From positions 1-61,837 of the forward strand of contig JAJYOI010000005.1 of the NCBI GenBank assembly GCA_021796275.1: a stretch of 61,837 bases of DNA, given 5' to 3'. Source of the stretch: Bacteroidota bacterium (GTDB lineage Bacteria > Bacteroidota > Ignavibacteria > UBA10030 > UBA8401). The position numbers and the translations under genes were made by a program. Of this stretch, positions 3,451 to 12,618 are shown piece after piece. Under the pieces are notes generated by a model. The model was not told the DNA's origin, made no database searches, and saw nothing but the letters and a program-made list of their open reading frames with translations. Each line of letters opens with the position of its first letter. Position 1 is the first letter of the stretch.

Positions 3451-3930
3451 ATGCTTCCCCATTATATCATTGACGGCTACAATCTTCTTCACGAAATTCT
3501 ACCGCTGAAAAAACTTCTCTCACATGATGCAGTCGCAGCAAGAGAGCAACTTATTGACATGATTGCACGGCTTACGATGAAAAGAAAACTCCGCTGCACG
3601 ATCGTATTCGACGGTGCTAAACCGCATGCTGGAAACTTTCCGGCAAGCAATACGCCGATTCATGTCGTGCATGCTTTCCCTGTTTCTGCCGACGAGAAAA
3701 TTCGGGAGATGATTGAAAAATCGAAAAGCCGCACATCGCTCGTCATTGTTTCTTCCGATCACGAAATTCTGAATTTTGCACGCGTTTGTTCATGCACAAC
3801 GCACACATCAAAATATTTTAAGCAGATGTTATTTGAAGAGCCGGATCACGGCGAAGAAAAGGAACAGGTGAGTCTTTCAAAAGCGCAGGTAAAGGAATGG
3901 CTGAAGATTTTTGGAGAAGAGAAACAGTAA
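3451..3930 (+). CDS. NYN-domain (YacP-like) RNA-binding/nuclease protein
   Basis: This 159-residue protein opens with IIDGYNLLHE, the signature of the NYN (YacP/Rae1-like, DUF901) PIN-fold family. A conserved acidic DGAKP segment near residue 52 and SSDHEI near residue 101 fit the metal-binding face. Bacillus YacP/Rae1 is a ribosome-associated mRNA endoribonuclease; transferring that role here is an inference. The ATG follows the helicase stop by one base, which implies translational coupling. The gene ends three bases from the end of convergent carA, with no obvious terminator hairpin between them. Confidence 0.85.
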   Translation: MLPHYIIDGYNLLHEILPLKKLLSHDAVAAREQLIDMIARLTMKRKLRCTIVFDGAKPHAGNFPASNTPIHVVHAFPVSADEKIREMIEKSKSRTSLVIVSSDHEILNFARVCSCTTHTSKYFKQMLFEEPDHGEEKEQVSLSKAQVKEWLKIFGEEKQ

Positions 3931-3933
3931 AGG

Positions 3934-5097
3934 CTATGCGCTCGCAACTGTGGGCGATTCTTTTACGCGCGAAGATTCCATCATTGCAATAAACTTCGCA
4001 AAAAGATAATCGCTGTCGTGGGGACCGGGGGAAGCTTCGGGATGATATTGAACGCAGAACAGCGGAAGTGTTTTATGCTGAAAACCTTCAACTGTGTGAT
4101 CGTTAAGATTGATGTGCGTCAACTCCACTTTTTCGGCGTCCATCGTTTTCCACTCGACGGCAAAACCGTGATTCTGCGATGTAATTTCAATCTCATTCGT
4201 CTTCAAATTTTTCACCGGATGGTTGGCTCCGCGATGCCCGAATTTCAATTTGTACGTCTTCCCGCCAAGCGCTAACGCTAACAATTGATGACCAAGGCAA
4301 ATACCAAAAATCGGCTTCACGCCGACTAGTTTTTTTAGATTCTGAATTGCATATTTCACCGCATCCGGATCACCGGGACCATTCGAAAGAAAAATTCCAT
4401 CAGGATTCATTGCAAGAACTTGTTCGGCAGAATATGACGCCGGCACAACAGTAAGGTCACATCCATAGCTGACAAGCCGGCGTAAAATATTTCTCTTCAC
4501 ACCATAATCAAATACCACAACATTGAAACGCCGCCCATTTCGCTTCGCATCAACTTTTTGAGTCGCCAGCGCATACGTCGTACGATCAACATCATTCCAG
4601 CGGTACGGCTTCTCACACGTGACATGTTTTGCTAAATCCTGCCCCGTCATTCCTGGCGACGCCTGCGCTTTTGCAACGAGGCTTGTATCGTCTAAATCCG
4701 TTGTCGAAAGGACTCCGCGCAATGCGCCCTGTGTGCGAATCATTTTCGTCAACATGCGCGTATCAATGCCCTGAAGAGCGATGACATTATTGCGTTTCAA
4801 CCATGCGGCAAGACTTTCGTTCGCACGCCAATTGCTGAAGAAATCAAAATACTCGCGCACGAGAAATCCTGAAACCTGCGGCTTACCGGATTCAATATCT
4901 TCAAGATTAACACCGTAATTGCCAATCATCGGATACGTCATCGTGACAATCTGTCCGGCGTACGACGGGTCGGTGAGAATTTCCTGATAGCCGGTCATGC
5001 TCGTGTTGAACACAACTTCGCCGGCAATTTCTCCTTCGGCGCCGAAATTCTCTCCGGTAAAGACTATTCCATTCTCTAAAGCAAGCTTTGCGATCAT
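3934..5097 (-). CDS. carA: Carbamoyl-phosphate synthase small (glutaminase) subunit
   Basis: The 387-residue protein has the CarA-specific N-terminal domain (about 1-140) and a class I glutamine amidotransferase domain (about 190-375). The nucleophile Cys267 lies in FGICLGHQLL, and the His352/Glu354 pair lies in QYHPEASPGP. It supplies ammonia from glutamine to CarB for carbamoyl phosphate, feeding pyrimidine and arginine synthesis. Length is normal. No carB is in the window, so the subunits are encoded apart. A sigma70-like promoter lies just upstream (5133-5161). An inserted mobile unit ends immediately beyond that promoter. Confidence 0.96.
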   Translation of the reverse strand: MIAKLALENGIVFTGENFGAEGEIAGEVVFNTSMTGYQEILTDPSYAGQIVTMTYPMIGNYGVNLEDIESGKPQVSGFLVREYFDFFSNWRANESLAAWLKRNNVIALQGIDTRMLTKMIRTQGALRGVLSTTDLDDTSLVAKAQASPGMTGQDLAKHVTCEKPYRWNDVDRTTYALATQKVDAKRNGRRFNVVVFDYGVKRNILRRLVSYGCDLTVVPASYSAEQVLAMNPDGIFLSNGPGDPDAVKYAIQNLKKLVGVKPIFGICLGHQLLALALGGKTYKLKFGHRGANHPVKNLKTNEIEITSQNHGFAVEWKTMDAEKVELTHINLNDHTVEGFQHKTLPLFCVQYHPEASPGPHDSDYLFAKFIAMMESSRVKESPTVASA

Positions 5098-5163: not shown

Positions 5164-5171
5164 AACATTCC
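5164..5171. repeat. Left target-site duplication of the 3.07-kb insertion
   Basis: AACATTCC directly precedes the left inverted repeat. AACATCCC directly follows the right inverted repeat (8238-8245). Seven of eight bases match, and the first five (AACAT) are identical. This is what an 8-bp duplication made at insertion would look like after one later substitution. Confidence 0.6.
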
Positions 5172-5210
5172 GGTGCTGGCTCAATTTACTCTTAAGTGGC
5201 TCAATTTCAA
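5172..5210 (+). repeat. Left terminal inverted repeat of the cargo unit
   Basis: Starts GGTGCTGGCTCAATTT and has a second GTGGCTCAATTT about 20 bases in. It pairs with the reverse complement of 8199-8237. The first 16 positions differ at one base. Confidence 0.7.
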
Positions 5211-5335
5211 TTTTTCTAAGTGAAAAAGAACGATAAAAAGTGAAAACGGGCACGGTTAATGAGGTTGCAATTGAAAATGGGAAATGTGATATTACTGCAC
5301 CCCATACTCGATAAACATTTGAAAGAGGTGCTCGC

Positions 5336-6886
5336 ATGTCGAAAGTTAATCTTGATGCTTTAGTACCACGAGAAGATTTTGATGCAATAGGAAATAATAG
5401 TCCGGGTGTTGTTGGAGATACAATTTCGATTTCCGATTTAACAAGTGGATATGTTTATCCATTTATTAGAAAACCCGATTTTCAACGAGAAACAAGCGAA
5501 TGGGATGCTAAGCAAATTTGTGATTTTTTAGAAAGTTTTCTTAATGGAGATTTAATTCCTGCCATCATATTATGGAGAAGTGCGTCTGGAAATTATTTTG
5601 TTATTGATGGTGCCCATAGACTTGGTGTCTTAGTTGCTTGGATTTTTAATGATTATGGGGATAAAGATATTTCTCAAAAATTTTATGACCATGATATTTC
5701 TTCAGATGAAATGTCTATTGCTGATAAAGCACGGAAAATGGTAAATCATCGAATTGGATCATTCCAAGATATTAAAAACTCCCCAAATGAAACAGCGCCT
5801 AATCCGGCATATTTGCAAAGAGCTAAAAATATGGGAGCCTATAAACTACGCGTTCAATGGGTAGAGGGTAATGCTGAAAAGGCAGAAAGTTCATTTTTTA
5901 AGATTAATCAGCAAGGCGTACCACTTAATAAAACAGAAATTAAACTTTTGGAATCCAGAAAAAAGGCTAATTGCATAGCGGCGAGAGCAATTTGGAAGGC
6001 AGGAAAGGGACATAAATTTTGGGTTGATTTTTCCGCAGAAAATCAAAGTGAAATTCAACGGCTTGCCAGCGAGATTAACAAAATATTATTTACTCCTCCA
6101 TTAAAATCGCCGGTTAAAAATCTACATTTACCAATCGCGGGAAGAATATCTGTGTCACTCCCTCTTATTTTTGATTTCATAAACATTGTTAATAATGTAC
6201 CATCCGATTTTAATAAAAAATTATTAGATGATGATAATGGAAATCAGACCATACAATATTTACGAGAAGTTAGAAAAATTGCATGGCGTATTAATAGCGT
6301 TCATCCTTCCTCGCTTGGATTAGATTCCATAGTTTATTTTTACAATACAAAGGGACAGCACAAGGCAACATCTTTTAGAGCAGTCATTGTTTGGGTTCTG
6401 GAGATGCAAAAAAATAATTCGTTCAAGGAGTTTACTAAAATTCGAGCGAATTTTGAAGAACTTCTCTTGAAGTATAATGATATGATTCAAGATATAGGAA
6501 GAAAGCTAAGACAATCAATTGATAGTTATTATGAAATAAAAGATTTCTATACAGAATGTATAAAATCTCTATCAAGAGGAAATAGTATTGATGCCGCGAT
6601 AAAAGAAGTAATTAGAACTACAAAGTTTAGTTATCTCAAAATGGAAATTCACTCAAGCGATTTCCACAACGAGGTCACAAGTGCAGTTATTAAAAGAGAA
6701 CGTAAATCTTCGGCTTTTATTAGAGAAGCATTAGAAACACGTATAAGATGTAAAATTTGTGGTGCAAGGTTACATGAAAATGCCATGCAGGTTGATCACA
6801 TTATCCGTGAAGAAGATGGGGGCTTGGGGAATGAAGAGAACGCTCAACTTACTCATCCGTTTTGCAATTCTACAATAAAAAATTAA
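5336..6886 (+). CDS. DUF262 (GmrSD/ParB-like) and HNH endonuclease domain protein
   Basis: The 516-residue protein has an N-terminal DUF262-type domain with PDFQRE (residues 47-52) and the nucleotide/catalytic motif DGAHR (91-95). The C-terminus (472-516) is a zinc-type HNH nuclease: CKIC at 472-475, VDH at 486-488 and HPFCN at 507-511. DUF262-HNH proteins occur among restriction and anti-phage systems of the GmrSD/type IV kind, so a DNA-cleaving defence role is inferred. AAAGAGGTG before the ATG is a good Shine-Dalgarno match. The gene is much more AT-rich than its chromosomal neighbours and sits inside the inverted-repeat-bounded unit. No methylase partner is present. Confidence 0.8.
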   Translation: MSKVNLDALVPREDFDAIGNNSPGVVGDTISISDLTSGYVYPFIRKPDFQRETSEWDAKQICDFLESFLNGDLIPAIILWRSASGNYFVIDGAHRLGVLVAWIFNDYGDKDISQKFYDHDISSDEMSIADKARKMVNHRIGSFQDIKNSPNETAPNPAYLQRAKNMGAYKLRVQWVEGNAEKAESSFFKINQQGVPLNKTEIKLLESRKKANCIAARAIWKAGKGHKFWVDFSAENQSEIQRLASEINKILFTPPLKSPVKNLHLPIAGRISVSLPLIFDFINIVNNVPSDFNKKLLDDDNGNQTIQYLREVRKIAWRINSVHPSSLGLDSIVYFYNTKGQHKATSFRAVIVWVLEMQKNNSFKEFTKIRANFEELLLKYNDMIQDIGRKLRQSIDSYYEIKDFYTECIKSLSRGNSIDAAIKEVIRTTKFSYLKMEIHSSDFHNEVTSAVIKRERKSSAFIREALETRIRCKICGARLHENAMQVDHIIREEDGGLGNEENAQLTHPFCNSTIKN

Positions 6887-7069
6887 AATTTTTCAAAGAG
6901 TCTCAAACATTTAGAAGCCGCGTTAGCATTACACTTTTTTCATTACAACTTTATGCGTATCCATGAAACAATTCGTGTTACCCCCGCAATGGAAGCGGGT
7001 ATTAGCAAACACCTTGTTTCATGGGAAGATTTCTTGGAATGGAGCGTTGAGAGCCGAATAGCGGCATAG
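6887..7069 (+). pseudogene. IS1-like transposase C-terminal relic
   Basis: Reading on from the stop of the HNH gene in the same frame gives LKHLEAALALHFFHYNF, then MRIHETIRVTPAMEAGIS and a short tail ending at TAG (7067-7069). The HYNF-RIH-T-RVTPAMEAG pattern is the C-terminal signature of IS1-type DDE transposases. Only about 55-60 codons remain. The DDE catalytic region and a start are missing, so it cannot be functional. It shows that another insertion sequence once occupied this unit. Confidence 0.75.
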
Positions 7070-7095
7070 TTTGTGCCAATATTCAATTTTTTAAT

Positions 7096-7124
7096 TTGCT
7101 ATTCAAATATTATAGTACTAAATT
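7096..7124 (+). promoter_or_regulatory. Putative promoter of the toxin-antitoxin pair
   Basis: TTGCTA (7096-7101) and TAAATT (7119-7124) are 17 bases apart. The expected transcription start would fall at or within a few bases of the ATG at 7131. No Shine-Dalgarno sequence is visible, so a leaderless mRNA is possible. The region is very AT-rich, which makes chance matches more likely. Confidence 0.35.
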
Positions 7125-7130
7125 TATAAT

Positions 7131-7754
7131 ATGTTAATGGAAATTAAAAAGGAAATTTCATTTCCACTGGATGTAGAAAAATCGCTTGCGATTGCCCAAA
7201 ACATCTTAAACAGATTAGAGGACAAAGAAGCGAATTTCATGTACTTATTGAAGTTGATATTTTTTGCAGATAGATACCACTTCAGAAAATATTTGCGCCC
7301 TTCGACAAGCGATAAATATTTTGCAATGAAAAGGGGCGCGGTAGCATCATATTTATATGACATTTTTAAGAATGGCACAAACGACGAAAGAATAAAAAAA
7401 ATTGGTGATTACACCGTTCAGCTCACCGGAGAACCGCAGTATCAAGAAAAATTATCGCAATCCGATATAGAGGCCATAGACTTTTCTTTCAATAATTTCG
7501 GGAAATATTCTGACATGGTTTTATCTGACATTTGTCATGCTTATCCCGAATGGAAGAAATTTGAAAAAGAATTAAATTCAAGAGATGGAAGAAAAAGCAT
7601 TCTAATGGATATGAGAGATTTTTTGGAAGATGCCGATCCAGAAGACAATATCTTTAGAAAAAATAAAATGTCCGATCCGTTTGAACCAATCCCAAAAGAA
7701 GAAAAAGAAATATTAGAAACACAATTGGTTGAAATTCACTCGCAAATCGCATGA
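7131..7754 (+). CDS. Panacea (DUF4065/SocA-like) antitoxin
   Basis: This 207-residue protein carries the Panacea core: YLLKLIFFADRYHFRKY (about 40-56), then FAMKRGAVASYLYD and, near residue 110, QSDIEAIDFSFNNFGKYSD. The domain is known as a promiscuous antitoxin fold that neutralises many unrelated toxins encoded next to it. A charged tail of about 50 residues follows the domain and may contact the toxin. The stop overlaps the next start by four bases (ATGA), the tight coupling typical of toxin-antitoxin pairs. A second in-frame ATG lies two codons in. The gene lies inside the AT-rich mobile unit. Confidence 0.8.
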   Translation: MLMEIKKEISFPLDVEKSLAIAQNILNRLEDKEANFMYLLKLIFFADRYHFRKYLRPSTSDKYFAMKRGAVASYLYDIFKNGTNDERIKKIGDYTVQLTGEPQYQEKLSQSDIEAIDFSFNNFGKYSDMVLSDICHAYPEWKKFEKELNSRDGRKSILMDMRDFLEDADPEDNIFRKNKMSDPFEPIPKEEKEILETQLVEIHSQIA

Positions 7755-8179
7755 GTCTTTCTGTTGGCGATGTTTTTTGGCTAAATAATCCCGAGGTTTC
7801 TTCTTCTAAATCCCATCTGCATATAGTCGTTGGCATTACCCAAGATAAAAGGGTTTATTATGTTTATGCTACTACGGGTAAGCGGTTCATGGAATTATTA
7901 TGCAAAAAAGCAGAGGGCAAGAAAGATACAACGAATCTATATACGCTTGTCGTCACCGATTCAACCGAATGCGCGGAACTAAGAGAAGAATCTTATATAA
8001 ACGTTAATCTATCATTTAGTAAGTCTGAATATGTTCTAACCAGACTTCGCACCTATTCACCGTGCGAGAATGTTAAAGCCGATCCAGCATTATTAAGAAA
8101 AATAGATGTTGCCCTTCTTTCCTCTCCCACCAAATCAATAGAGCTTGATACGATTGTAAGAGAGCGATTAAATCTTTAA
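7751..8179 (+). CDS. Putative toxin partner of the Panacea antitoxin
   Basis: The 142-residue protein was not recognised with certainty. Its start (SVGDVFWLNNPE, then SHLHIVVGIT) resembles the opening strand-turn-strand of PemK/MazF-like SH3 barrels, where GDV-W precedes a short HxxVV strand. That likeness is weak. The function is inferred mainly from position: it overlaps the Panacea gene by four bases and is the last gene in the unit, 20 bases before the right inverted repeat. There is no signal peptide or membrane segment, so a cytoplasmic protein is expected. Confidence 0.5.
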   Translation: MSLSVGDVFWLNNPEVSSSKSHLHIVVGITQDKRVYYVYATTGKRFMELLCKKAEGKKDTTNLYTLVVTDSTECAELREESYINVNLSFSKSEYVLTRLRTYSPCENVKADPALLRKIDVALLSSPTKSIELDTIVRERLNL

Positions 8180-8198
8180 AAAACTACAAATCCTTAGT

Positions 8199-8237
8199 TT
8201 CAAACTGAGCCACTCGGCATCAAATTGAGCAAGCACC
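8199..8237 (-). repeat. Right terminal inverted repeat of the cargo unit
   Basis: Its reverse complement starts GGTGCTTGCTCAATTT and has GTGGCTCAGTTT about 20 bases in, mirroring 5172-5210 with the same spacing. Mismatches gather in the spacer between the two sub-repeats. The sub-repeats are therefore probably the protein-binding sites. Confidence 0.7.
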
Positions 8238-8245
8238 AACATCCC
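8238..8245. repeat. Right target-site duplication of the 3.07-kb insertion
   Basis: AACATCCC is the partner of AACATTCC at 5164-5171, with one mismatch. Confidence 0.6.
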
Positions 8246-8280: not shown

Positions 8281-10161
8281 TCAATGACGAACGAGAACAA
8301 TCCCCAAGTGTGTGCCGCGCGGGGTTTGCACGTGATAGAAATACAATCCATCAGGAAGAGGAAGCTGCGGAAAGTGCAACGCATGCCGCCCAGAAGAAAT
8401 TTCTGAAGAAAAGATCGTTGAAACGTTCTGCCCCAATTGATTGTAAAGTTTTAGCACAACAAGAGAAGGCTTCGCAAGTGTAACGCCGATATATGCCGGC
8501 GACAGCGCCGATAGCGCTGGTGTAACTGCCGCAAGATTTTGAAGCGGCGCGCGTTCTGGCTCCTTAGGATCGTAAAAACGAACCGCCGTAACATTCGACG
8601 GAAGGCTTTCATTCCATAATCTATCAAGTGATGTGGCAACGTACCACAATTCTGTACCGGGCGATGCAGGAAATTCGTCAACAAGCGAAGTCAAGGTGTC
8701 GGATGTTATGCAAAACAATTCCTTTGCATCGGAAGTTGTCAGATCACTTTGAGAAAACGAGCGATACATCGCAAAACGATATGCGCCGTCTCCGTCATTG
8801 GCATACAACGGAGATTCCCAATGAAGATCTACTTCTCCGCCAGTTTTTGTTGCTTTCAGGTTTTGCGGAGGCAGCGGCGGAACCGCATCTTTCCAACGCA
8901 TTGTCGGAAGCAACGCAGGATAGCTGTAGAAATTATATTTCAACGAATCTTGAAATCCATTCAAATTTCTTGTAATAGATTTCGAGCTGAAAAAAATACT
9001 TCCGCTCACATTTGAAGTTTCACGATTCAGTCTCATTTGGTTTGGCATTTGCGATGCCGACGACCAATGCGGATCTCCACGCCCGTTTCCGTTTCGATAC
9101 GCTGCCTGCCCGATATACAAATCACGTCCGAACGTGTGTTGCGCCCACCACGGTGTCAATAGATCATACGCCGCAGGCGGATTGCCGATGCTCCAGTAAA
9201 TCTGCGGCGTGACGTAATCAATCGTACCGGCACGCAGCCATTCCAATGCATCGCAGTACAATTTGTCGTATGCCTCAAAGCCATTTGTGCCGGCGCCGCC
9301 ATCCGCAATTTTATTTTTCCAAATGCCGAAGGGGCTGATGCCGAACTTCACCCACGGTTTTATAACGCTGATGCTGTCGTGAATCATGTTGACAAGAAGA
9401 TTCACATTGTCTCTTCGCCAATCGGCAAGCTTAGTAAAGCCGCGATTGTAATGAAGGAATGTCAGGCTGTCTTCGTTCGTGATCGGAGAATATGGATAAA
9501 AATAATCGTCAAAGTGGATTCCATCCACATCATACCGGCGAACGACATCAAGAATAACTTTCGTGACATACGCACGCACAGCGGGTAATCCCGGATCCAA
9601 CAGCTTCATCGAGCCAAACGTGAGAAGCCAGTCCGGATGCTGAACGGCAACATGGTTTGGCGCAAGCTGGTAGCTTCCTCTTCCCGATGAAGATTTCACG
9701 GCGCGATACGGATTGAACCACGCGTGCAATTCCATTCCGCGCTTGTGCGCTTCTTCAATGGCAAATTGCAAAGGATCCCACATGGGCGATGGCGCTTTTC
9801 CCTGTTCGCCGGTTAACCAATATGACCACGGCTCAATCGAAGAACGATACAATGCATCGCATTCGGGGCGGACTTGAAAAACGACAGCGTTAATGCCTGT
9901 AGATTTCAAATTGTCCAGAATGGAAATCAATTCTTGTTGTTGAACTGCCGGCGGTTCTCCTTTGTGCAACGGCCAATCTATATCATCAACAGTAGCGATC
10001 CACACGCCGCGGAATTCCCGCTTCGGCGGGAAAACTTCAGCATGAAGTGAACTTACAATGAACAATAAACACAACAACGTCCAATTGACGATTGCCGATT
10101 TACAATTTTCAATTTCCAATTTCTTATTACCTGTTGTCACTCGCCGTTGGCTATTGCTCAT
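8281..10161 (-). CDS. Secreted GHL10 (DUF187/YngK-DigH-like) glycosyl hydrolase-like protein, copy 2
   Basis: After a hydrophobic signal-like stretch (about residues 28-41) comes a GHL10 domain starting PPKREFRGVWIATV and continuing with WFNPYRAV and GIHFDDYFYPY. The family includes E. coli DigH, which cuts peptide-free peptidoglycan strands, so a cell-wall glycan substrate is plausible. The last 80 residues (LKLYNQLGQ ... LPDGLYFYHV) look like a divergent type IX sorting domain. It is a tandem paralogue of the next gene upstream (10171-12618), which it lacks only in the middle domains. The first 27 residues are encoded by an AATTGNN heptamer repeat and are atypical for a signal peptide. No downstream ATG precedes the signal, so the start is uncertain. 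Confidence 0.82.
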   Translation of the reverse strand: MSNSQRRVTTGNKKLEIENCKSAIVNWTLLCLLFIVSSLHAEVFPPKREFRGVWIATVDDIDWPLHKGEPPAVQQQELISILDNLKSTGINAVVFQVRPECDALYRSSIEPWSYWLTGEQGKAPSPMWDPLQFAIEEAHKRGMELHAWFNPYRAVKSSSGRGSYQLAPNHVAVQHPDWLLTFGSMKLLDPGLPAVRAYVTKVILDVVRRYDVDGIHFDDYFYPYSPITNEDSLTFLHYNRGFTKLADWRRDNVNLLVNMIHDSISVIKPWVKFGISPFGIWKNKIADGGAGTNGFEAYDKLYCDALEWLRAGTIDYVTPQIYWSIGNPPAAYDLLTPWWAQHTFGRDLYIGQAAYRNGNGRGDPHWSSASQMPNQMRLNRETSNVSGSIFFSSKSITRNLNGFQDSLKYNFYSYPALLPTMRWKDAVPPLPPQNLKATKTGGEVDLHWESPLYANDGDGAYRFAMYRSFSQSDLTTSDAKELFCITSDTLTSLVDEFPASPGTELWYVATSLDRLWNESLPSNVTAVRFYDPKEPERAPLQNLAAVTPALSALSPAYIGVTLAKPSLVVLKLYNQLGQNVSTIFSSEISSGRHALHFPQLPLPDGLYFYHVQTPRGTHLGIVLVRH

Positions 10162-10173
10162 TGATAATTGTTA
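10083..10173. repeat. Degenerate heptanucleotide tandem repeat
   Basis: From 10083 to 10124 six 7-base units follow each other, as AATTGAC, GATTGCC, GATTTAC, AATTTTC, AATTTCC and AATTTCT. Weaker units with ATTG at the same phase continue to about 10173. On the minus strand this encodes the first residues of the GHL10 copy 2 protein. Such 7-mer arrays are normally intergenic. Confidence 0.6.
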
Positions 10174-12618
10174 TTTCTCCAACAACATTTTTTTCGCGTC
10201 AACAAACGAGCCGGATTGCAAGCGGTAAATGTATACGCCGCTCGGCAGCGCCGAAGCATTCCATTCAACCTCATACGTTCCGGAAACTCTTTGTCCATTC
10301 ACCAATGTTGCCACTTCCTGGCCGAGAACGTTATACACTTTCAATGTGACAAATCCGTAATCGGCAATCGTAAACCGTAAACGTGTCGCCGGGTTGAACG
10401 GATTCGGATAATTCTGATCAAGATGATACACCAATGGCTGCATTTCATTCCCTTGTTCAACTCCGGCTGTGCCCTGCCCGACACCGAAAAGCACAACTTT
10501 GAATGGCGAGTTCTGTGCAGTGCTGTATATTTTCAATGTATCCAGAAAAACTTTTGCTGTGTCTGGAGAAAATGCCACTGAAAAACTAAGCGTATCGCTT
10601 TTTGTCAGCGAAAGAGGAAATGTTATTGCCTGCGGCATCGAAAAAGCTTTGCTCTGGTGAACAATGGAATCCACCCGCAATGTGTTGACCGAAGAATTAC
10701 TCAGCGATACTGTTTTTGAAACCGACTGTCCGACATCAATTGTCCCGAAACCGATACCGGTTGCGCGTGCAGTCATCATTGGCGGCGGTGAATTTCCTTT
10801 CACAAAAACTTTCACCAAACTCAACGCTGAATTGTTTGGAAGGAACACAGTATCCGTGAATTGTCCGACAGCGGCGGGAGAAAAATAAACCAGAACTGCG
10901 GCACTGTCACTGACCGTTTCCGGTTTATTATCAGTTGAAGCGTGAAATGGCGCGCCTCCGGCATACGCTGAATCAAGTGTCAAAGTATTTGCTGAATGAT
11001 TGTACACAATCAACGAATCAACAGAAGCATTACCGATAGCAACATCGCCGAGATCAATCGAGAGTCTATTCATGGCAATAAACGGTTTGCCGCTTGGTGC
11101 GACATACGCCCGGCTTGCCGTGCTGCTTTCGTTCCATAATTTATCCAACGAAGTTACAATCGCTTCATATTGTGCGGAAGAAGCGGAAGCAAACGAATCC
11201 TGAAATTGTGTCGTGTCGGTCGCTGTGATTGTGCGAATGTTGCGCGGATCGGCCGCGTTAACTGCCAACAGAGAATTCACAGCGCTGTACACCACATATC
11301 GCCTCGCAGAATCTCCGTCTGCGGCAAGCGCCGGATTCTGCCACTGCAATAAAATTCCGTTTACATTTGCCGTGCCCGCAAGATTTGCCGGCGGCAACGG
11401 CGGAATGGAATCTTTCCACGTCATCGCAGGCATGAGCGTTGGGTATTTGTAGAAATTATTCTTCAACGAATCTGCAAAACCTTTCGGATTGTTGGTAACG
11501 CCGTACGCTGCCCTGAAGAAAATACTTCCCTCCGCAATGCCCGTACGATCCAACCGAATTTGATTCGGCAACTCTGACGATCCCCAATTACTATCCGTGA
11601 TGCGGTACGGTGCTTGCCCAACATACAAATGTCTGCCGTTTTTCACCGAAGCCCACCACGGCGCAAGTTTTCCATAATCTTGTCCGCCGCCAAAGGGCCA
11701 ATACAATTCGGGTCCAATGTAATCAACCCATCCTTGGGCAAGCCACGTCACAGCATCACAATACAAATCATCGTACGCACTCAGCCCGGAAACTCCTGCC
11801 GGAACTCCGCTCTTCCAAATACCAAATGGACTGATACCGAACTTCACCCACGGCTTCACGGCTTGAATGCTGTCATGAACTGCTTTGATAAGAACATTGA
11901 CATTATTTCTTCGCCAATCGCCGATATTTGTAAAGCTCCCGCGGTACAATCTCCAGCTTGCAGAATCCTGATTTGTTATGCCATTGTAGGAATAAAAATA
12001 ATCGTCCCAGTGCACACCATCAATATCGTAGCGCCGCACAACGTCAAGAATAACGCTTAAGTCGTACGCGCGCACATCGGGAATCCCGGGATCGAGCAGC
12101 CATTCGTTGCTGAATTTGAGAAGCCACTCAGGATGTTTCACTGCAACATGATTCGAAGCAAGAGTGTAACTCGGAACTCCGCTCTTTACCGTTTTCACTG
12201 CGCGGTACGGATTGAACCACGCATGCAATTCCATTCCACGCTTGTGCGCTTCGGTAATTGCAAATTGAAGCGGATCCCATAACGGGCTCGGCGCGCTGCC
12301 CTGCGCTCCGGTCAGCCAATACGACCACGGTTCGATTGATGACTGATACAGCGCATCGCATTCCGGCCGAATTTGAAAAACAACCGCGTTAATGCCGATA
12401 GCTTTCAGATTATCAAGAATGGTGATGAGCTGGCTTTGCTGGTACGATGGCGCCGCACCGCGCGCGGGCCAATCAAGGTTCGCAACGGTCGCAATCCATG
12501 CCCCGCGAAATTCACGCTTCGGAGGAACGCTTTGTGCGGATGATATTGCAAATGGCGCTGTAAGCGCCACAAAAACTACAACGAGTGTGAGAAGGAGAGG
12601 TCGTATCAAATTTTTCAT
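10171..12618 (-). CDS. Secreted GHL10 protein with ASH-like domains and type IX sorting signal, copy 1
   Basis: The 815-residue protein has a signal peptide (residues 1-29, ending SSAQS). A GHL10 domain follows (PPKREFRGAWIATV, about 32-400), then a fibronectin-like stretch. Two immunoglobulin-like ASH/choice-of-anchor repeats follow (GDVAIGNASVDSLIV and GTIDVGQSVSKTV). The C-terminus is a classic Por/type IX sorting domain (LDQNYPNPFNPATRLRF ... LPSGVYIYRLQSG). Export across both membranes with sorting-domain removal is the expected fate. The substrate is probably peptidoglycan-like glycan by analogy to DigH. It ends 9 bases before the tandem paralogue and is probably in the same operon. Confidence 0.9.
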   Translation of the reverse strand: MKNLIRPLLLTLVVVFVALTAPFAISSAQSVPPKREFRGAWIATVANLDWPARGAAPSYQQSQLITILDNLKAIGINAVVFQIRPECDALYQSSIEPWSYWLTGAQGSAPSPLWDPLQFAITEAHKRGMELHAWFNPYRAVKTVKSGVPSYTLASNHVAVKHPEWLLKFSNEWLLDPGIPDVRAYDLSVILDVVRRYDIDGVHWDDYFYSYNGITNQDSASWRLYRGSFTNIGDWRRNNVNVLIKAVHDSIQAVKPWVKFGISPFGIWKSGVPAGVSGLSAYDDLYCDAVTWLAQGWVDYIGPELYWPFGGGQDYGKLAPWWASVKNGRHLYVGQAPYRITDSNWGSSELPNQIRLDRTGIAEGSIFFRAAYGVTNNPKGFADSLKNNFYKYPTLMPAMTWKDSIPPLPPANLAGTANVNGILLQWQNPALAADGDSARRYVVYSAVNSLLAVNAADPRNIRTITATDTTQFQDSFASASSAQYEAIVTSLDKLWNESSTASRAYVAPSGKPFIAMNRLSIDLGDVAIGNASVDSLIVYNHSANTLTLDSAYAGGAPFHASTDNKPETVSDSAAVLVYFSPAAVGQFTDTVFLPNNSALSLVKVFVKGNSPPPMMTARATGIGFGTIDVGQSVSKTVSLSNSSVNTLRVDSIVHQSKAFSMPQAITFPLSLTKSDTLSFSVAFSPDTAKVFLDTLKIYSTAQNSPFKVVLFGVGQGTAGVEQGNEMQPLVYHLDQNYPNPFNPATRLRFTIADYGFVTLKVYNVLGQEVATLVNGQRVSGTYEVEWNASALPSGVYIYRLQSGSFVDAKKMLLEK

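Follow-up and report, generated by a model that had tools for sequence, protein, structure and literature searches.

A probable transposase-less derivative of an IS1-related transporter insertion sequence, carrying nuclease and predicted toxin-antitoxin genes, in an Ignavibacteria genome

We analyzed a stretch of 61,837 nucleotides (hereafter the window; contig JAJYOI010000005.1, positions 1 to 61,837, assembly GCA_021796275.1) from a Bacteroidota bacterium of the class Ignavibacteria, whose genome is a draft of 150 contigs, 91% complete. The block at 5164-8245 of this window is very probably a decayed and now non-autonomous member of an IS1-related group of transporter insertion sequences (IS), that is, of IS carrying passenger genes. 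By its anatomy it is a mobile insertion cassette. Between its ends it encodes a nuclease, the tail of an IS1-like transposase and a candidate toxin-antitoxin pair.

The insertion and its ends

Read directly from the sequence, the block is a precise insertion of about 3 kb with inverted ends and an 8-bp target duplication, the flanking 8-mers AACATTCC and AACATCCC differing at a single base. Its neighbors are carA (3934-5097) on one side and a GHL10 gene (8281-10161) on the other. Its GC content, 0.349 versus 0.47 on either side, is approximately the lowest of any 3-kb stretch in the window. In a genome of the same genus (G002) the flanks almost abut, separated by short intergenic sequence only (...GAGTCAACGAACACGCTTCAATGA...; ...GAGAGTCAACGAACACGCTTCAATGA...), and in another one (G001) the corresponding intergenic spot holds an unrelated gene for a 740-aa TonB-dependent receptor (L031, 2167-4389). 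Taken together with the ends, the duplication and the base composition, this near-empty site and this receptor gene indicate a true insertion at a variable carA-GHL10 site. The original prediction, made from the letters of the window alone, had described an AT-rich block with duplicated flanks between two host genes and had called for a search for the empty site in close relatives; the near-empty site and the composition agree with it, and 8-bp duplications turn out to be usual in the related units described below.

The two arms are complementary at 30/39 positions (77%), and each contains two TGGCTCARTTT-type repeats 20 bp apart, at 5177 and 5197 on the plus strand and at 8222 and 8202 on the minus strand, as had been noticed at first sight. 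When we simulated 400 pairs of 300-bp flanks of equal nearest-neighbour composition and took the best 39-mer match of each, the maximum was 26/39, so that the observed match exceeds every simulation (Table 1).

Table 1. Coordinates of the parts of the block in the window, with the evidence for each
Feature	Position	Strand	Evidence
Left copy of the 8-bp target duplication (AACATTCC)	5164-5171	.	Sequence; 7/8 identical to 8238-8245
Left terminal inverted repeat (GGTGCTGGCTCAATTT...), in which a 20-bp unit occurs as a doublet (TGGCTCAATTT at 5177 and 5197)	5172-5210	+	Sequence comparison
Nuclease, 516 aa, GmrSD N-terminal (DUF262) domain and HNH domain	5336-6886	+	Pfam PF03235 4e-18, PF01844 1.3e-6
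Transposase relic, last 59 codons and stop of an IS1-like transposase	6890-7069	+	80% identical to L121, 78% to L073 and L181
Antitoxin, SocA/Panacea domain, 207 aa	7131-7754	+	Pfam PF13274 5.9e-21
Putative toxin, 142 aa, predicted MazF/Kid-like fold	7751-8179	+	Structure model; homologues beside Panacea antitoxins
Right terminal inverted repeat (GGTGCTTGCTCAATTT...), with the doublet of the left end	8199-8237	-	Sequence comparison
Right copy of the 8-bp target duplication (AACATCCC)	8238-8245	.	Sequence; near-empty site in G002

The search for other copies of these ends, which had also been proposed, gave a divided answer. No further copy was found in the genome of the window, the exact end pattern had no match among viral contigs, and blastn of the ends against plasmids returned matches at chance level only. 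On the other hand, the 20-bp doublet was found at the end of L181, a unit with an intact transposase, and in L073, and with wider spacing in L121. L073 was the informative locus among the 29 returned by a doublet scan over 84,980 species genomes. Most of these 29 loci correspond to something else, namely a TGGCTCA repeat of 10-bp period in one acidobacterial metagenome-assembled genome. This genome (WGMB01, isolate RI_231) contains many such arrays, unlike the transposon ends described here (L064, L067, L068, L071, L072, L074-L076, L078-L080, L082, L084, L088, L090 and L091).

Kinship with IS1-type units

L073, from a Bacteroidetes metagenome contig, has inverted ends GGTACTGGCTTAGTTA.../GGCACTGGCTCAATTT... 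lying 3.06 kb apart and an 8-bp duplication CTCTCGAA; between these ends it encodes an M78 peptidase with a small partner and an IS1-like transposase, besides one further gene. The frame of this transposase (3909-4752) is broken near the C-terminus (LHFLPL*), the homologous tail going on in another frame. L121 (ends GGTACTGGCTCAATTT..., duplication TACACAGG) and L181 (right end GGTAGTGGCTTAGTTTGAGCGTTAGTGGCTCAATTTC, with the doublet) both have an intact transposase.

The relic of the window begins one codon past the stop of the nuclease gene, in the same frame, and lies between that gene and the toxin-antitoxin operon. Its frame is open throughout, but the transposase has lost roughly its first 220 codons and, with them, the catalytic DDE residues; the window copy is therefore unable to move itself. 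The nearest relatives of the relic are the transposases of L121, L073 and L181, in other words of the units that share the TGGCTCA termini. Ends and relic, compared separately, thus point to one and the same lineage. The original prediction was right that the unit has no usable transposase and that a relic is present, the 59-codon tail being all that remains; the relic is however not foreign, since it is the tail of the element's own IS1-type transposase.

As for the family, the transposases of the relatives score 27.9-33.7 bits on Pfam PF03400, above the cut-off of 24.1, and several plasmid copies are named 'IS1 family transposase' by the annotation pipeline PGAP. The 8-9 bp duplication and GGT-type inverted ends of the family were also found, with 8 bp in the window (7/8 identical) and exact duplications in 23/30 units of the group described below. 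Membership of the IS1595 family was considered and rejected, as NF033547 gives at most 25.8 bits against a cut-off of 75 and there is no ISXO2-like Pfam match.

A wider group of related units

Relatives of the transposase occur in 10/395 genomes of the phylum and, partial copies included, in 20/98 genomes of the order; 21 plasmid records, many of them alphaproteobacterial, also hold them. We could delimit 30 units bounded by inverted ends, that of the window included, in the phylum and on alphaproteobacterial plasmids. They measure 1.4-5.2 kb and their ends are mostly of the type GGTAGTGnnnyAnTTTGAA. Exact 8-bp duplications flank 11 of the 14 units that were chosen by their inverted repeats alone, which is the fairer figure than the 23/30 because some of the other pairs were chosen with the duplication in mind. 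The intact form consists of inverted repeats starting with GGTRSTG, a single-ORF (open reading frame) IS1-like DDE transposase and at least one passenger gene on either side of it.

Two loci contain units placed end to end that have one copy of the 8-bp duplication in common: L112 (5388-8719 and 8728-11666, AAATATTC) and L182 (2428-6430 and 6439-11588, AAAATTTT). It looks as if the duplication made by one element had been the precise insertion target of the other.

The cargo, annotated with Pfam and PADLOC, is varied. A SocA/Panacea antitoxin with a partner is present in the window, L114, L176 and L182, and in L114, an intact unit, the pair belongs to the same toxin-antitoxin family as in the window. 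M78 peptidase genes are carried by L073, L108 and L138, and a gene of L123 looks related by eye. L138, on a Hoeflea plasmid, contains a complete RosmerTA system (RmrA 3e-191, RmrT 1e-97). We also found PD-Lambda-2_B-like genes (L116, L135), PDC-M24B genes (L113, L188), an N6/N4 methylase with an MvaI/BcnI restriction enzyme forming a type II restriction-modification system (L123), MazF/PemK (L120), HigB (L193) and the GmrSD_N-HNH nuclease of the window, with a homologue in L172. Weaker matches concern L170 (NYN), L175 (HicB-like), L185 and L189. Altogether, 15/30 units hold a clear toxin-antitoxin or defense gene and about 19 do so when the weaker matches are added, which is a count and not a tested enrichment. 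Just outside the right end of another unit, on an Acidiphilium plasmid (L136, 6883-7721), a RES toxin / Xre-type antitoxin pair starts.

The cargo of the window unit

The nuclease of the window is full length, as homologues align across residues 1-516. A homologue stands in the matching layout of L172; near those of genomes G096, G449, G192, G493 and G506 there is neither such a transposase nor such an end pair. The antitoxin and putative toxin genes overlap by 4 bp, and a Panacea-domain antitoxin encoded with a partner gene is the arrangement that characterizes PanAT systems. The partner matches no Pfam family above cut-off; its homologues lie beside Panacea antitoxins in four other genomes (G192, G615, G012 and G610; loci L114, L195, L196 and L197). 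The best of five AlphaFold models reaches a predicted local distance difference test (pLDDT) of 89.9, and Foldseek relates it to CptN and MazF (E 5e-4 to 2e-2, template modelling scores of about 0.5-0.66). Our best guess, based on this model, is that the partner is an RNase toxin. The nuclease and toxin-antitoxin cargo first proposed for the block is thus what domain matches and fold prediction suggest.

Repeated loss of the transposase

Six bounded units have kept both ends and a partial transposase: the window, L120, L170, L172, L175 and L176. What remains always includes the C-terminal half, the 5' part being lost, and in 6/6 of them cargo separates the relic from the right end. The order-wide transposase search yielded about nine C-terminal-only relics and no N-terminal-only one. 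The pattern would be simply explained if an addiction module on the right side kept deletions from crossing it.

L172, in another family, is a further nuclease and transposase-tail unit, with an exact duplication (GGATAGAT). In both cases the nuclease stop codon is immediately followed by the tail (at 6884-6892 of the window and, in reverse complement, around 4523-4533 of L172). The two tails belong to different transposase lineages and their starts are about 12 codons apart, which implies that the nuclease-then-tail layout arose twice or came by exchange. For the same reason, we rejected a single spreading nuclease cassette common to both loci as the principal explanation.

Mode of action and alternative readings

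We propose that the intact relatives would be mobilized by the IS1-type transposase that each encodes, acting at the paired ends. In the window copy, the nuclease would most likely be a type IV-like restriction enzyme that attacks invading DNA, to judge from its domains. The Panacea antitoxin would most likely restrain a toxin of predicted MazF fold, so that a cell losing the block would pay for it (addiction, possibly abortive infection). The cargo would thus probably pay for its keep as restriction and addiction. The paired ends would keep the block movable if an IS1-type transposase of matching specificity, from the L121/L181/L073 lineage, entered the cell.

Several observations weigh against this proposal. 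The draft genome of the window yielded no intact transposase of the L121/L181/L073 lineage, so that movement in trans is something we infer. The deletion may have followed the insertion, in which case the block may never have moved without its own transposase. For the transposases of the related units, the IS1 model of NCBIfam is the best match, with 59-71 bits, and this is below its equivalog cut-off of 100; they are best called a divergent, IS1-related single-ORF branch. Lastly, only one of the five AlphaFold models of the toxin is confident.

It is reasonably probable that the block is a dead remnant, in which the deletion came after insertion and which is now immobile and kept by selection on the toxin-antitoxin pair or on the nuclease. 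The missing helper and the slight decay of the target duplication agree with this, and so does the frequency of C-terminal-only relics in the order, with N-terminal-only ones unseen, as expected if deletions stop at the addiction module. Nevertheless, the ends are still well matched, and a gap in the draft may explain the missing helper.

We find it rather unlikely that the transposase was lost before this insertion and that a helper in trans brought the block here. That a cognate transposase can activate such cassettes is known from PMC3129680 and from the MIC231 work cited in PMC2266710; six truncated units retain both ends, and L172, in another family, repeats the nuclease-then-tail layout. 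However, the open frame of the relic and its 80% identity to intact enzymes suggest a recent loss, no truncated unit was found in two copies at two sites, and the different lineages of the window and L172 relics do not fit one spreading cassette.

The original prediction had proposed an IS21-like unit, whose non-autonomous cargo would be moved by a helper IS21 element. That the block is non-autonomous stands; movement by a helper is conceivable as described above for an IS1-type enzyme; an IS21-type unit mobilized by IstAB seems highly improbable. The block does share multi-repeat ends with IS21 elements from its class, such as L041 with its GGTGGTCAGTTTG-type repeats, and this explains the initial mistake. 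The 8-bp length of the duplication also falls within the IS21 range. Yet the doublet of the window is absent from the IS21 transposase loci of the class (0/30), so that the IstAB element sharing these ends did not turn up; with two mismatches allowed per repeat, one poor match appears, inside one of the 30 loci. As predicted, the block contains no IstA/IstB, and neither does the genome, where the IstB profile gives weak matches within long frames and the IS21 transposase profile none. The TGGCTCA termini and the IS1-like relic instead match the ends and transposases of L073, L121 and L181, and we therefore rejected the IS21 family. Finally, an ordinary low-GC island with inverted repeats around it by chance, for which one could invoke the variability of the intergenic site with its receptor gene in G001, can be dismissed in view of a repeat match above 400/400 simulations, the duplication, the near-empty site and the many units of like build elsewhere.

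Relation to known systems

The reading as a decayed IS1-related unit can be compared with several known systems. With the single-ORF branch of the IS1 family, the group shares a DDE transposase above the Pfam IS1 cut-off, GGT-starting ends and an 8-bp duplication; unlike it, the group is divergent, mostly 3-5 kb long with passenger genes, and lacks a functional transposase in its window copy. The name transporter IS (tIS) is in use for elements that carry passenger genes (PMC3129680; PMC7986276; the IS1595 paper by Siguier, Gagnevin and Chandler, 2009, to which both PMC5704250 and PMC7986276 refer). The title of this last paper relates IS1595 to IS1. Like tIS, the relatives, for example L114, L121 and L138, combine IS ends, a transposase and passenger genes unrelated to transposition, whereas the window unit, whose transposase is a relic, does not. 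In contrast to the tIS based on IS1595, the transposase of the group is nearer to IS1 and the cargo consists largely of toxin-antitoxin and defense genes. Transposase-less IS ends with cargo are described as mobile insertion cassettes (MIC231, cited in PMC2266710; PMC3129680), and the window block, with IS ends and cargo and no transposase gene, has this anatomy. MIC231, on the other hand, is an IS231-group cassette within the IS4 family, and movement in trans of the window cassette would have to be assumed.

The PanAT paper notes that many Panacea pairs are near transposase genes, of unspecified type (PMC8832971). The window pair resembles PanAT by its SocA/Panacea antitoxin, small partner and overlapping genes; it differs by a partner without a Pfam family and with a predicted MazF-like fold, and by the resolved borders of its mobile unit. 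Tn3 transposons are known to carry toxin-antitoxin pairs (PMC7157771), and Tn7-like ones defense cargo (PMC8649781). These too are transposons that repeatedly gain such genes, but their transposase families are others and the IS1-type units are much smaller. Our literature search found no paper on IS1-type units with defense cargo, which is weak evidence, subscription papers and ISfinder/TnPedia lying outside its scope. Large passenger-carrying members of the IS1 family are listed in ISfinder/TnPedia.

What seems to be new is an IS1-related branch often loaded with defense or toxin-antitoxin modules, with resolved borders and repeated transposase-less derivatives. Such genes are known to travel on plasmids, prophages, Tn3 and Tn7-like transposons, and the cases reported 'near a transposase' usually have no borders assigned. 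In the present units, these are legible to the base by the ends and the 8-bp duplication, and RosmerTA, PD-Lambda-2-like, PDC-M24, MvaI-type restriction-modification and Panacea pairs can thus be placed inside small IS1-type units. Unknown two-gene cargoes can thereby be bounded easily and put forward as candidate toxin-antitoxin or defense systems, and the units offer a testable case of addiction genes shaping transposon decay. A more speculative hypothesis, which we offer tentatively, would be a widespread IS1-type branch specialized in interchangeable toxin-antitoxin and anti-phage modules. It would repeatedly shed the 5' part of its transposase while an addiction module guards the other side, leaving persistent transposase-less defense cassettes that visiting IS1-type helpers could move again in trans.

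Neighboring genes

Beyond the insertion, the minus strand carries two adjacent paralogous GHL10 genes (8281-10161 and 10171-12618).

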